DNA of 64,000 nt from the NCBI GenBank assembly GCA_029974835.1, contig JARKQN010000127.1:1-64000 (forward strand). Reading direction: 5' to 3'. The notes beneath the pieces were generated by a model. It did no database searches and was not told where the DNA came from. It saw only the letters and a list, made by a program, of their open reading frames with translations. Each line of letters begins with the position of its first letter. Position 1 is the stretch's first letter. Both the position numbers and the translations under genes were made by a program. Positions 4,251 to 44,523 of the stretch are shown in pieces. Source of the stretch: Bacteroidales bacterium. GTDB taxonomy: Bacteria > Bacteroidota > Bacteroidia > Bacteroidales > VadinHA17.

Positions 4251-4338
4251 AGTCTTAGGATGGGGTGCCTTAATATTACGGGCTGAGATCATACCCTTGA
4301 ACCTGATCCGGGTAATGCCGGCGTAGGGAATAAAGAGT
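4251..4338 (+). promoter_or_regulatory. TPP riboswitch (THI box)
   Basis: The conserved thiamine pyrophosphate aptamer is readable directly: GGGGTGCC at 4262-4269, GGCTGAGATCATACCCTTGAACCTGATC at about 4280-4307 (the pyrimidine-sensing CUGAGA and the ACCUGAUC core), and the 3' GGGTAATGCCGGCGTAGGGA that closes the pyrophosphate-sensing helix. Outer strands CTTA and TAAAG can form P1. In Bacteroidota, TPP binding is expected to lower expression of the operon downstream, here the thiamine receptor, permease and kinase genes. Only about 55 nt separate the aptamer from the ATG at 4395; no strong terminator is visible there, so control of translation initiation is the simpler guess. Confidence 0.95.
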
Positions 4339-4394
4339 ATCACACAATTCAGCGCTAACACCTCATCGGTTGAAAATATTTTAACTGATGAAAA

Positions 4395-40306: not shown

Positions 40307-40840
40307 ATGCGACATCAGAGAGTAATAAACCACCTGGGAAGAACCAGTGCACACAGAAAGGCCATGCTTGCCAATATGGCAGCATCCCTTATTATGAGCA
40401 AAAGAATAAAAACCACAACAGCCAAGGCAAGGGCTCTCCGGACATATATCGAACCTCTTATCACAAAATCGAAGGAAGATTCCACACATTCGCGCAGAAT
40501 GGTTTTCAGTCACCTCCAGAATAAAGAGGCAGTTTCTGAATTGTTCAGAACAATCTCCCCCAAAGTGGCTGAAAGACCGGGCGGATACACCAGGATACTA
40601 AAAACCGGAAACAGAATCGGCGATAATGCGGAAATGTGCATAATCGAACTGGTCGACTTTAATGAGGCTATGCTCGGAACAGAACCCAAAACCAAAACCG
40701 CTGCAAGGAGAAGAAGATCTCCAAAAAAGAAAACAGCCGGACAAACCACCGGAGCCGCTGAGGCAGCCACAACCGATACCGCCTCTGAAACAACTCCGCA
40801 GGAGGAACCTGCAAAAGAACAGGGGGAAGAGTCTAAATAG
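40307..40840 (+). CDS. rplQ: 50S ribosomal protein L17 with acidic/Ala-Thr-rich tail
   Basis: The core (about residues 1-120) is normal L17: [32 protein letters not shown] and [14 protein letters not shown] tail of about 50 residues follows, first basic ([10 protein letters not shown]) and then rich in Ala, Thr, Glu and Gln. E. coli L17 has 127 residues. Such tails are known in Bacteroidota L17 and are probably disordered. It is the last gene of the translation operon, ahead of the palindrome at 40876-40909. Confidence 0.96.
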
Positions 40841-40875
40841 CTCGCAATACATTACTATACAATAATTTACAAATT

Positions 40876-40909
40876 ACAGGAGTTATTAACAATTGTTAAT
40901 AACTCCTGT
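40876..40909. terminator. Perfect 34-bp palindrome ending the translation operon
   Basis: Arms 40876-40892 and 40893-40909 are exact reverse complements with no spacer, starting ACAGGAGTTATTAAC. In RNA the arms would give a stem of about 15 bp with a 4-nt AATT loop. Only TTTATATT follows, so the U-tract is weak. It may still terminate transcription or protect the mRNA 3' end. Confidence 0.7.
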
Positions 40910-40965
40910 TTATATTGCGTTTACAACAATGACCCGAAATATTTTCAAATTGAAGTTTCATACAT

Positions 40966-40973
40966 TATTTTTG
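40966..40973 (+). promoter_or_regulatory. -7 box (TATTTTTG) of the large structured RNA
   Basis: This is an exact TAnnTTTG match. A TTTT at 40942-40945 lies 20 bp upstream in place of TTTG. Transcription would start about 40979-40982, at the left edge of the hairpin-rich, more GC-rich region. Confidence 0.65.
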
Positions 40974-40979
40974 ACATAT

Positions 40980-41476
40980 CAGGTGAGCGATAAAAGGCTG
41001 CTCAAACGATGTGGAACCAGATAACGGTTTCTTAACTGAAGCCCGGAATGGTTCGGTCAGACCCCCGGGTCTGCGCATCAGAGAGCCGAAGCCTGAACCA
41101 GGAGACCACTCTCGGAAGTCTCCGGTGTTCAGCAGATCGATGAAACCGGAAACGTTCTTTCAACGATTGGGTCACAGGGCTGCAGGAAACAAAGGACTTC
41201 GGTCTGATGGGAACTGCAAACTGAACTTCCCTCCGGGGAGGATCAGCGCATGCCTGACTGACGCTTCGTCCCGGAATTCCCGCCTCGGCGGGAAGAAAGG
41301 ACAGCCCGAAGGCACAGCCTTAACAAGCAGTGCCCGACGGTTCAGGGTTGCCAAACCAGATCTCACGATCTGCTAAGCAGCCGGCCAGAATAACAGTAGC
41401 CTGACGCCGTTCGCGGCCTCGGCTGCAAACGGTGAATGGGAACTAATCTAACGAATAGTTCCCATTACTGTTTTTT
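40980..41476 (+). ncRNA. Large (about 500 nt) structured non-coding RNA of unassigned class
   Basis: This stretch lies between rplQ and ubiD, is more GC-rich than its AT-rich flanks, and has a promoter box and a strong terminator in the same direction. Compact hairpins follow one another: CAGACC-CCCG-GGTCTG (41058-41073), TGAAC/GGAGAC with GTCTCC/GTTCA (41094-41131), GAC-TTCG-GTC (41195-41204), CTGAT/ATCAG (41204-41246), TTCCCGC-CTCG-GCGGGAA (41277-41294), AAGGC-ACA-GCCTT (41309-41321), GGTT-GCCA-AACC (41346-41357), CAGATC-TCAC-GATCTG (41357-41372) and GCCG-TTCG-CGGC (41406-41417), the last enclosed by GCAGCCG/CGGCTGC (41377-41383/41420-41426). GGCTGCT at 40996-41002 can pair alternatively with AGCAGCC at 41376-41382. 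Conserved cores of RNase P RNA, tmRNA, SRP RNA and group II domain V are absent. Open frames across it give Arg/Ser/Gly/Pro-rich sequence typical of spurious ORFs over structured RNA. Function unknown. Confidence 0.75.
41435..41476 (+). terminator. Intrinsic terminator of the structured RNA
   Basis: A perfect 11-bp stem (AATGGGAACTA at 41435-41445 and TAGTTCCCATT at 41456-41466) with a 10-nt loop is followed by ACTG and six T. The T-run fixes the RNA on the plus strand. Confidence 0.92.
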
Positions 41477-41545
41477 ATACACCCCTTATCCCTCATATCC
41501 CTTCCTATTATGCTGAAACAATTATCAACCCTCCTCGCCTTTTAA

Positions 41546-41553
41546 TATATTTG
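41546..41553 (+). promoter_or_regulatory. -7 box (TATATTTG) for ubiD
   Basis: An exact TAnnTTTG match lies 19 nt before the ubiD ATG at 41573 and downstream of the RNA terminator, so ubiD has its own promoter. A -33 element is not clear. Confidence 0.6.
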
Positions 41554-41572
41554 TAAAGTCAATATCAGAAAG

Positions 41573-43462
41573 ATGGCCTGGAAAGGACTTAATGAGTTTG
41601 TGTCTGCACTCGAAAAAAGGGGTGATCTGAAAAGAATAAAAACCTTCTTTGACCCCGAACTCGAAATAACCGAAATTGCCGACAGGTTTGTAAAAAACAA
41701 TGGCCCTGCACTGCTGTTCGAAAATAACGGAACCGCGTTTCCTCTGCTGATAAACGCTTTCGCTTCCGGAAAAAGACTTGCCATGGCATGCAGCATGGAA
41801 GACATTGGCCATCTGATTTCCAGAATCTCCCGCATTCCGGCCTCCATGCCATCCGCACCTTCATCCTTCCTCAGTAAAATTAAGGGTATCCCCGGATTGC
41901 TGAACCTTGTCAACCTGATTCCCTCAAGGTCGTCCCGGCGCGGCCTGTGCCAGCATACCATTATCAGGAAACCGGACCTGAGCATAATACCTGTTCTTAA
42001 ATGCTGGCCTCACGACGGAGGAAGATACATAACTCTTCCCGTCGTAAACACTTATCACCCCGAAACCCTGAAACCAAACGCCGGCATGTACAGGATGCAG
42101 GTACTGGGCCCGGATACAACAGCAATGCACTGGCAACTGCACAAAACAGGAGCAAATCACTTCGAAGCATGGAAAAAAACCGGCAGAAAAATGCCGGTAT
42201 CGGTTATCCTCGGGGGCGATCCGGTTTACACCTATGCCGCAACAGCCCCCCTGCCTGAGAATATCGACGAATATCTGCTGGCCGGTTTCATCAGGGGCCG
42301 GAAGGTGAAACTTGTCAAATGCATCACAAATGACATCTATGTCCCCGACGATGCTGATTTTGTTATCGAAGGGTTCGTTGACCCCCTGGAGGAACCGGTA
42401 ACTGAGGGCCCTTTCGGCGATCATACCGGTTTCTACAGCCTCGAAGGCCCCTATCCGAGGTTTCATGTAACATGTATTACTCATTCCCGTAATCCTGTTT
42501 ACCCGGCCACCATCGTGGGTGTCCCCCCAATGGAAGATTACCAGTTTACGGAACTGACTTCTGAAATATTCCAGGCCCCCCTTAAACTTACCCTGCTTCC
42601 GGAACTTGAAGATATGCACCTTCCTGCTCCGGGCGTGGCGCATAACCTCGCGATAGTCAAAATACAAAAAAGGTGGCCCGGACAGGGGAAGAAGGTGATA
42701 AATTCTGTTTTTGGCGCCGGCCAGATGATGTTTACCAAATTTCTGGTAGTGGTGAGTGAAGATACCGACATCCGCGACTACAAAAGCCTGGCACGGGTTG
42801 TTTTCAGTTCCTGCAATCCTTCGCACGACCTTGTCTTTACACGCGGCCCTCTCGATGTGCTCGATCATGCATCTGATACAGAAGCCTATGGCGGTAAACT
42901 CGGAATTGATGCCACACGTAAAGTGCCGCAGGAAAAAACAGATGAAAAGCAGGATATTCCTCTGCTCACCTGGTCAGCCGACCCCGGTACATTGTTAACT
43001 GCCGGACTGATCACGGCATACAGGGATCTGCGCGGGGAGTTTGATATTCCGGTCCTTATCGCAGCCGTAAAAAACACCGGAGGAAAAACCAACATTGCAG
43101 CGATAAAGGATTTTCTGAAGGAAACGGCCCGGCATTCAGGGTTTGGTTTATTCGTGGCAGTGGACGATGGATTTGATCTTTCTGATATCTCCCTCTGTAC
43201 CTGGCACATACTTGGCAACACGGATCCAGTTCGCGACATAGAGAATATTGAAGGAAAGCTTTATATCATAGACGCTACAACCAAGGCTTACCGGCCGGGC
43301 GGATTTCCGCGACCATGGCCGGGGATTGTGTGCTCTGACGATGATACCATACGGAGAATTGATGAGAAATGGGAAGAGCTCGGACCTGCCCCGTTTATCA
43401 AATCGCCCTCGCTTAGATTCAGCAAAGCCTTCCGCCCGGGATCGGCTGCCATCAAAGCCTGA
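41573..43462 (+). CDS. ubiD: UbiD-family decarboxylase
   Basis: The 629-residue enzyme belongs to the prenylated-FMN-dependent UbiD family. Recognisable segments are NTYHPETLKPNAGMYRMQV (about residues 157-175), AMHWQLHKTG, FVDPLEEPVTEGPFGDHTGFYS with the conserved E-x-P-F-G-D active-site run (about 270-291), and IGVPPMED-type phrases (VGVPPMEDYQF). It is longer than E. coli UbiD (497) and matches the long form seen in Bacteroidota, which is often annotated for menaquinone synthesis. The exact substrate cannot be told, and no quinone genes are adjacent. It follows the structured RNA but has its own promoter box. Confidence 0.88.
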   Translation: MAWKGLNEFVSALEKRGDLKRIKTFFDPELEITEIADRFVKNNGPALLFENNGTAFPLLINAFASGKRLAMACSMEDIGHLISRISRIPASMPSAPSSFLSKIKGIPGLLNLVNLIPSRSSRRGLCQHTIIRKPDLSIIPVLKCWPHDGGRYITLPVVNTYHPETLKPNAGMYRMQVLGPDTTAMHWQLHKTGANHFEAWKKTGRKMPVSVILGGDPVYTYAATAPLPENIDEYLLAGFIRGRKVKLVKCITNDIYVPDDADFVIEGFVDPLEEPVTEGPFGDHTGFYSLEGPYPRFHVTCITHSRNPVYPATIVGVPPMEDYQFTELTSEIFQAPLKLTLLPELEDMHLPAPGVAHNLAIVKIQKRWPGQGKKVINSVFGAGQMMFTKFLVVVSEDTDIRDYKSLARVVFSSCNPSHDLVFTRGPLDVLDHASDTEAYGGKLGIDATRKVPQEKTDEKQDIPLLTWSADPGTLLTAGLITAYRDLRGEFDIPVLIAAVKNTGGKTNIAAIKDFLKETARHSGFGLFVAVDDGFDLSDISLCTWHILGNTDPVRDIENIEGKLYIIDATTKAYRPGGFPRPWPGIVCSDDDTIRRIDEKWEELGPAPFIKSPSLRFSKAFRPGSAAIKA

Positions 43463-43524: not shown

Positions 43525-44523
43525 ATGAAACTCCTGCTTTCTGAATTTGTGCAAGAGTGGCCGGCAGGATGGAAACTGTTTACCGGTCAGTATTTTATGT
43601 CAGCAACAATCAGGGTTGTTGTATACATCTTCCTTTTAACGGTTGCAATCTTTCTGGCTTACCGGTTATATAAGAGCGAACTGGTCAGGGCCAGGAGAGA
43701 ACTTGCTGATTATAAAACCAGGATGGAGGAGCTAAGCCGGAAACTGTCTCTTCTTGAGGCCAGAAGCAGTAACATTACCGAAAGTCTGGTTTATGCTCAC
43801 CGCATACAGAACGCCCTTTTGCCCGAAGTGTCACTGTTGACTGAAAGCTTCCCGGAAAGCTTTATACTTTATCTTCCGAAAGATATCGTAAGCGGCGATT
43901 TATACTGGTTTTACAAACATGGAAACAGGGTAATCCTGGTTGTCGCCGACTGTACAGGCCATGGGGTGCCGGGCGCCCTGATGTCGATGATAGGCCATAA
44001 CCTTATCAACAGTCTTATCAAGGAAAATCCGGATGATAGTCCGGGAAAAATTCTTGACCGGCTCGACAAAATGGTGGGGTCTCTGTTCCCCGGAGGTAAA
44101 CCCGGAGACCCTGGAATAAAGGAAAGCATGGACATATCGGTTTGTACAGTGAATGTTAAGGACATGACTCTTGAGTTTTCAGGGGCATTCTCGTCGGTGT
44201 ATTACTTCAGCGGCGACAAACTCAATGAACTGAAAGGTGATAAATATATACTGGGGATGAAACCCGGAGAGGCATCATATACAACTCACAGAATAAATGT
44301 GAACAGGGGTGAACCGGTGTATCTTTTTACCGATGGTTATGCCGATCAGTTCGGGGGAGAGGAAAACAAGAAGTTTATGTACAGGAGGCTGAGATATCTT
44401 CTTACAACCATAAACAGGCTTCCTATGAGTGAACAGAAGATCATTCTTAAGGATACTCTTGAAAACTGGAAGGGGACAAATGACCAGATAGACGATATAC
44501 TGGTTATGGGAATAAGAATTTAA
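43525..44523 (+). CDS. Membrane-anchored SpoIIE/PP2C-type serine phosphatase
   Basis: The 332-residue protein has one membrane helix (about residues 27-48), a coiled-coil linker (KSELVRARRELADYKTRMEELSRKL...) and a PP2C/SpoIIE phosphatase domain. Metal-binding motifs are intact: the aspartate in SGDLYW (about 118-123), DCTGHGVPGALMS (about 138-150), TDGYADQFGG (about 272-281) and NDQIDDILVMGIRI. SpoIIE phosphatases usually dephosphorylate anti-anti-sigma proteins in partner-switching pathways, or dephosphorylate proteins in gliding or surface signalling. No partner is adjacent. The convergent gene encodes a hybrid kinase/receiver protein. An internal ATG at 43597 is an alternative start. Confidence 0.85.
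   Translation: MKLLLSEFVQEWPAGWKLFTGQYFMSATIRVVVYIFLLTVAIFLAYRLYKSELVRARRELADYKTRMEELSRKLSLLEARSSNITESLVYAHRIQNALLPEVSLLTESFPESFILYLPKDIVSGDLYWFYKHGNRVILVVADCTGHGVPGALMSMIGHNLINSLIKENPDDSPGKILDRLDKMVGSLFPGGKPGDPGIKESMDISVCTVNVKDMTLEFSGAFSSVYYFSGDKLNELKGDKYILGMKPGEASYTTHRINVNRGEPVYLFTDGYADQFGGEENKKFMYRRLRYLLTTINRLPMSEQKIILKDTLENWKGTNDQIDDILVMGIRI

Follow-up and report, generated by a model that had tools for sequence, protein, structure and literature searches.

We found that the GC-rich DNA between rplQ and ubiD in a 64,000-nt stretch of a Bacteroidales genome (the window) very probably encodes a member of a new class of large structured non-coding RNA (ncRNA), about 500 nt long in the window copy, that would act in trans from its own promoter and end at its own terminator. 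We infer its expression from the sequence. The RNA is absent from Rfam 15 as tested and from the literature searched, and the class looks undescribed in Bacteroidia. A preliminary description of the window had proposed a structured RNA gene of this size and called it an orphan. The gene was borne out by homologues, a consensus fold and covariation; the word orphan was wrong, as homologues occur in the genus, the order and the class. The features of the locus are collected in Table 1.

Table 1. Coordinates of features at and around the ncRNA gene in the window
Feature	Position	Strand	Details
rplQ	40307-40840		neighbour 5' of the ncRNA in the window; the window neighbours are L17 and UbiD
22-bp palindrome, operator-like	40882-40903	.	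GTTATTAACAATTGTTAATAAC; begins 97 nt before the P1 5' strand
Two more degenerate half-sites	40907-40925	.	TGTTTATA (40907-40914) and GTTTACA (40919-40925)
Predicted -7 promoter box, Bacteroidota type	40966-40973	+	TATTTTTG, an exact TAnnTTTG
ncRNA gene	40979-41476	+	predicted ends: 5' by promoter spacing and P1, 3' by the terminator
P1, 5' strand	40979-40984	+	UCAGGU; partner 41399-41404
5' core	40985-40996	+	GAGCGAUAAAAG; nearly invariant; consensus GAGnGAUAAAaG over 101 copies, several letters being fixed by the search expression
P2, 5' strand	40996-40999	+	GGCU; partner 41383-41386 (GGCC)
3' domain	41240-41410	+	basis of covariance model R1
3' core	41389-41398	+	AAUAACAGUA; lies opposite the 5' core in the internal loop between P1 and P2
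P1, 3' strand	41399-41404	+	GCCUGA; directly after AAUAACAGUA
Last hairpin 5' of terminator	41405-41434	+	CGCCGU-GCGGC-CUCG-GCUGC-ACGGUG; covaries in 102 sequences
Predicted terminator hairpin and T-run	41435-41476	+	11-bp stem 41435-41445 / 41456-41466; T residues up to 41476
ubiD, menaquinone-type UbiD decarboxylase	41573-43462	+	TIGR03701, 553.7 bits; constant neighbour in the genus only

A structured RNA gene with compensatory substitutions

Both ends of the gene carry signals that recur in its homologues. The exact Bacteroidota -7 box described earlier holds: a TAnnTTTG box is present in 92 of the 99 copies with enough upstream DNA, and 81 of the 99 have TTG approximately 19 nt 5' of the box. 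The -33 site of the window copy is weak (TTTC). The 11-bp terminator stem with a T-run in the same direction, also seen earlier, is kept as well. Its pairing is maintained in 98.8% of cells (102 copies), and its GGG/CCC core is conserved order-wide.

The RNA is predicted to fold stably. The minimum free energy of the window RNA was -202.8 kcal/mol (z = -6.4), and none of 100 shuffled sequences folded as low. The complementary strand likewise folds well (z = -4.1). Because both strands fold well, energy by itself establishes neither strand nor function, and it is covariation that carries these points. A consensus fold from 48 genus copies contains 104 pairs in more than nine stems, in agreement with the at least nine hairpins of the preliminary description. 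Double compensatory changes were found at 50 of the 104 pairs, and UUCG-type tetraloops cap many of the hairpins in the genus copies.

We measured covariation against a phylogeny-aware null modelled on R-scape (Fitch reconstruction on a FastTree tree, with substitutions placed at random columns), using a G-test with APC and 40 null alignments. The genus alignment, A1, included 48 of the 54 loci. Omitted were both halves of a locus that is split (L060 and L061), three short loci (L059, L062 and L063) and L057, which has a large insertion. When only proposed pairs were considered, 9 of 104 were significant at E<0.05. Among them were the long-range pairs of P1 and P2, with column pairs 4-460 and 20-443 connecting both ends of the RNA. 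At the same cut-off, 4 of 123152 pairs off the structure were significant, versus 59 expected. The strict test of all pairs gave one significant pair only, and it lies within the structure.

An order-wide alignment of the 3' region (A4, 102 sequences) was fitted to the model and is therefore biased towards the structure; in it 13 of 21 proposed pairs were significant at E<0.05. Off the structure, 2 of 6195 pairs were significant (14.8 expected), and the all-pairs test gave seven significant pairs, every one in the structure. In addition, pair counts on alignments A3 and A4 were matched by none of 500 shuffles, and slid controls were far lower. A homologue search followed by a covariation test had been proposed as a check on the preliminary description; with this R-scape-like null the outcome was positive on the proposed pairs. 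The locus is a structured ncRNA gene whose compensatory substitutions exceed phylogenetic expectation.

A protein-coding gene was rejected, as the earlier reading of no credible protein had anticipated. The longest open reading frame in the ncRNA (41011-41376, 121 aa) is open in one of the 48 aligned copies, that of the window itself, and had no match in Pfam or NCBIfam. The length of this segment is divisible by 3 in just 13 of the 48 copies. An antisense reading frame had no match in Pfam.

The body between the paired ends differs greatly among copies in length and hairpin content. RNA length was 291-655 nt in 98 of the 101 copies measured, with extremes of 264 and 878 nt (some 5' ends may be misassigned). 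Within the genus, L062 (G036) and L063 (G017) span 369 and 368 nt of the alignment, versus about 500, and are approximately 130 nt shorter than other genus copies; L057 (G005) spans 768 nt and is approximately 250 nt longer. In three loci of family f128, in the class and outside the order, GUUUGAGACGGGCAACCGCAGAAGUGC-like modules are repeated approximately 107 nt apart (L116, L117 and L118; four modules in L116, three listed in L118). Internal repeats were rejected as a general design. Among 100 copies, L116-L118 alone clearly stand out, and a few others were slightly above their 4 shuffles each.

Distribution in the genus, the order and the class

The RNA is nearly constant in its own genus. 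Of 58 genus genomes, 53 have the region by BLASTN; the same search found it in none of 40 genomes from other families. Three genus genomes (G002, G018 and G040, the last 100% complete) lacked the ncRNA by both BLASTN and covariance model R2, and two more that BLASTN missed (G019 and G030) had only weak R2 matches (E of 0.002 and 0.003).

Beyond the genus we used two covariance models, R1 (the 3' domain) and R2 (the last 113 nt). R1 had matches at E≤0.01 in 34 of 393 genomes of the order. Outside the genus, 24 copies in 20 loci were examined, and nearly all share the 5' motif, the promoter and the terminator. The 40 seed sequences of R2 represent 11 families, and the genus contributed 16. R2 matched 114 of 384 order genomes at E≤0.01 and 87 at E≤1e-6, counts that include the seeds, for which E-values are circular. 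The RNA is thus patchy in the order, with 270 of the 384 sampled genomes having no R2 match at E≤0.01. In the class, 25 of 395 genomes matched at E≤1e-5. In a sample of the phylum, 22 of 395 genomes matched at E≤0.01; the strong matches were in the genome of the window and in three genomes that belong to one other family in the class, and no strong R2 match was found outside the class in this sample. None of the members of family f60 (presumably Bacteroidaceae) listed in the order, class and phylum searches had a match at E≤1e-5.

We scanned all named genomes with an independent pattern made of the promoter and the 5' core, no part of which lies within R2. At least 117 stretches matched, and 80 loci were examined. 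R2 confirmed 63 of the 80 (E about 1e-7 or better). For 62 of them, the R2 match follows the pattern by 156-789 nt on the same strand; in the exception, L179, the distance is 1009 nt. Forty-nine of the 63 are not R2 seeds (non-identical over the first 60 nt). Confirmed hosts include Draconibacterium aestuarii, D. sediminis, D. mangrovi, Maribellus maritimus, a Lentimicrobium sp. metagenome-assembled genome (MAG) and many Bacteroidales MAGs. Of the 17 loci without R2, some are cut by the end of the locus (e.g., L197 of Perlabentimonas gracilis), and those from other phyla are probably chance matches. Among the matches listed, few lay outside Bacteroidota, and these were unconfirmed. Homologues, covariation and distribution support the earlier proposal of a Bacteroidota-specific class, the models having been run on Bacteroidota genomes only.

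Some genomes have two copies. In four (loci L104, L107, L113 and L114 of G324, G129, G095 and G212, respectively) two RNA copies lie in the same orientation 0.5-1.5 kb apart, and in further genomes two copies are on different contigs.

The neighbours of the RNA depend on where one looks. The position directly after rplQ, part of the preliminary description, is true of the window and is incidental: rplQ was upstream in 7 of 54 genus loci (flanks mostly ≤1.5 kb). Across the genus the neighbour that stays constant is ubiD. It lies 3' of the RNA and in the same orientation in 48 of these 54 loci; the other six reach a contig end within approximately 490 nt. In other families the contexts differ, and some of the next genes are on the opposite strand. 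The menaquinone decarboxylase reading frame of the window encodes 629 aa, of which residues 8-442 are covered by the 433-position family model, leaving a C-terminal extension. Downstream of ubiD is a gene for a SpoIIE-type phosphatase (43525-44523).

Paired ends, conserved core and upstream repeats

Comparison of the copies shows that the two ends of the predicted RNA pair with each other (P1 and P2), closing off an internal loop that is nearly invariant. P1 pairs at 6/6 positions in 101 of 114 copies (98 from the R2 loci and 16 from the class search), versus a mean of 54.3 and a maximum of 66 with shuffled partners. Among the other copies, six pair at five positions and seven at three or fewer; the 3' motifs of those seven were possibly misread. 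The pairing is kept while the sequence changes. Thirty of the 40 distinct hexamer combinations are fully paired, including UCGGGU/AUCCGA, CCAAAC/GUUUGG, CCGAGU/GCUCGG and GCAGUU/AACUGC. In P2, column pair 20-443 is AU in 30, GC in 15 and GU in 3 of the 48 genus copies (E=0.019).

Few parts of the RNA are as conserved as the internal loop between P1 and P2 (5' GAGMGAUAAAAG versus 3' AAUAACWGUA). Across the 48 genus copies AAUAAC and UA of the 3' core are invariant and its G nearly so, and order-wide these letters are nearly invariant. The 5' motif was found in 95 of 102 R2 loci. In the class search, the 3' core was readable in 16 loci; each of these has the 5' motif 202-625 nt further upstream, and P1 pairs 6/6. 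Of the 26 loci that entered this reading, the 10 without a readable 3' core (two of them weak genus matches) were not counted, and in two loci the better of two candidates was chosen. AGUA opposite GAG beside P1 could perhaps form an S-turn (bulged-G) motif; we hold this with less confidence than the ribonucleoprotein reading given below.

A repeat array precedes the gene. Its consensus over 87 copies is gTTATtAACA-n0-4-TGTTnATAACnnntGTtnAtannnnGTtnA. A palindrome (TTATtAACA-n-TGTTnATAA) lies approximately 95 nt before the RNA and is followed by two TGTTnATA-like sites, the repeats being approximately 12 bp apart. The palindrome core, AACA-n0-4-TGTT, was found in 87 of 99 copies, and in 80 it falls within one 5-nt position bin. 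The background density of this core was 0.03 per 120 nt, sites at the RNA loci included. With up to two mismatches the palindrome was found in 18 of 26 genus genomes, always at the RNA locus, and three had one extra site; a reversed control pattern had matches in 3 of the 26. The array was not seen in the regions upstream of RNase P RNA and tmRNA, which were inspected by eye. These comparisons show that the array travels with the RNA, together with the predicted promoter and terminator.

Possible functions and relation to known RNAs

Our results suggest, tentatively, that the RNA is the framework of a ribonucleoprotein. The closed-end core would be the binding site of a conserved partner, most likely a protein, the variable body would serve as a scaffold, and a regulator bound to the upstream array would set the amount of the ribonucleoprotein. 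This proposal falls somewhat short of being probable. It draws on the layout of the RNA: the paired ends form a conserved core and the body varies freely, so the layout suits an RNA held by protein or a large RNA assembly. The array regulator could be a dedicated one or DnaA. Instead of being a scaffold, the RNA may be a base-pairing regulator, a ribozyme or an RNA-only assembly.

Two alternatives start from the surroundings of the RNA. A cis-regulatory leader or attenuator of ubiD, in which the RNA would sense something in the manner of a riboswitch and the terminator would decide ubiD transcription, is attractive at the genus level, given the same-strand ubiD 3' of the RNA and an unusually conserved terminator stem sequence. 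However, no UbiD relative was found among the reading frames within approximately 6 kb of 20 loci of other families, so the RNA is not a ubiD leader there, and the next genes are sometimes divergent in strand as noted above. The terminator pairing is kept throughout. The gap from the terminator to ubiD contains a TAnnTTTG box in the window, 27 nt 5' of the ATG; of 47 loci examined, 20 have such a box there, a rough count with automatically assigned starts. We rejected the leader from the contexts in other families, where it is refuted, and consider it very unlikely overall. An RNA coupled to replication or to DnaA is improbable, less so than a leader. The repeats would be DnaA boxes, the RNA level would track DnaA-ATP, and the RNA would act on replication or growth as a 6S-like global regulator. 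The DnaA box is TTATnCACA; the repeats TTATnAACA and TGTTnATAA differ from it by one or two letters, there are three or four sites at the spacing given above, and some class copies (L358 and L116) have an exact TGTGGATAA. Against this, the locus does not lie at a GC-skew switch in two long contigs, and the palindrome is nearly confined to the RNA locus. A search of 10 dnaA loci turned up no cluster of boxes 5' of the gene, with gene and strand not safely assigned for all of them. An origin of replication was also considered, and the GC skew in the two contigs argues against it.

The other alternatives concern the kind of RNA. Large structured bacterial RNAs often go undetected once divergent, so the locus might belong to a catalogued family (RNase P, tmRNA, SRP, 6S, HEARO, OLE, ROOL, GOLLD, Bacteroidales-1 or 6S-flavo), as the preliminary description had allowed. 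This was unsupported and we consider it extremely unlikely. A scan of the locus against Rfam, the first check proposed for that description, matched no family: at the gathering threshold Rfam 15 had a single match in the window, a distant TPP riboswitch, and in a permissive scan of 40850-41572 (E up to 10) the best matches were microRNA models on the upstream palindrome, which we take as chance. Rfam 15 had no match in 20 distant loci either. The absence of an RNase P RNA or tmRNA core was confirmed, both genes being elsewhere in the genome (RNase P RNA on G000:C77, 252.6 bits, RF00010; tmRNA on G000:C105, 139.6 bits, RF00023); the ncRNA has no RF00010 match, and ARAGORN found no tmRNA in the window. 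Nor was a leftover of an IscB-like element supported. HEARO (IscB omega RNA) had no Rfam match, the window neighbours are not a nuclease, and the RNA stays before ubiD in the genus. We consider an RNA of a mobile element or phage extremely unlikely too. Paired, at times tandem, copies in some genomes and the patchy distribution would fit it. However, BLASTN with the window copy was negative in 72,556 plasmid and 50,697 phage records (distant copies would be missed), R2 did not confirm the sole pattern match in a viral contig, and synteny holds across the genus; a phage or plasmid origin is thus unsupported by these searches. An RNA-only homo-oligomer, a cage or dimer like OLE, ROOL or GOLLD, is considerably less remote, if still unlikely. 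Size, the many stable hairpins and a second copy in several genomes point towards it, but Rfam found no sequence similarity to OLE, ROOL or GOLLD at the locus or in the 20 distant loci, and the UUCG-type tetraloops of many genus hairpins are poor kissing loops.

The TPP riboswitch of the window lies at 4251-4346 on the + strand and scored 58.7 bits, above the gathering score.

The ncRNA resembles several known RNAs in kind. OLE RNA, too, is large, structured and stand-alone and has a conserved core, and its function was long unclear; its hosts, according to passages of PMC9723947 and PMC11332333, are Gram-positive extremophilic or anaerobic species, and the ncRNA does not match its Rfam model. 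ROOL and GOLLD are also large, ornate bacterial RNAs, and PMC12286853 reports that they assemble into RNA nanocages. Their Rfam models do not match the ncRNA. The raiA motif (ModT) RNA is, like the ncRNA, structured, non-coding and widely spread. It is reported from phyla including Bacillota (PMC11706538), there is no Rfam match between the two, and PMC12286853 reports only a monomer by mass photometry of the raiA motif structure. The candidate RNAs Bacteroidales-1 (RF01693), Bacteroides-1 (RF01694), Flavo-1 (RF01705) and 6S-flavo (RF01685), listed for Bacteroidetes in part of PMC2864571, come from the same phylum, and none matched at the locus or in the 20 distant loci. In the literature searches, several of which returned mostly unrelated papers, no title or opening of an abstract describes such an RNA; the main texts of the discovery papers PMC11109978 and PMC8632094 contain no words starting with Bacteroid, Flavobacter or Cytophag.

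The ncRNA spans many families of Bacteroidia, including the culturable genera Draconibacterium and Maribellus. With a defined start and end, a conserved core and an operator array, its expression, its partner and its phenotype are directly testable.

To our knowledge, large structured RNA classes of bacteria are few. Several of the known ones proved to be new molecular machines or assemblies. With moderate confidence, we suggest that the ncRNA may be a Bacteroidia RNA machine whose closed-end core would be catalytic or RNP-binding, with a varying body and a dedicated, possibly DnaA-type, operator array, at a fixed locus in one genus and in two copies in several genomes. Its standing would then be comparable to that of OLE or ROOL, in a phylum that has no such RNA in the literature searched.
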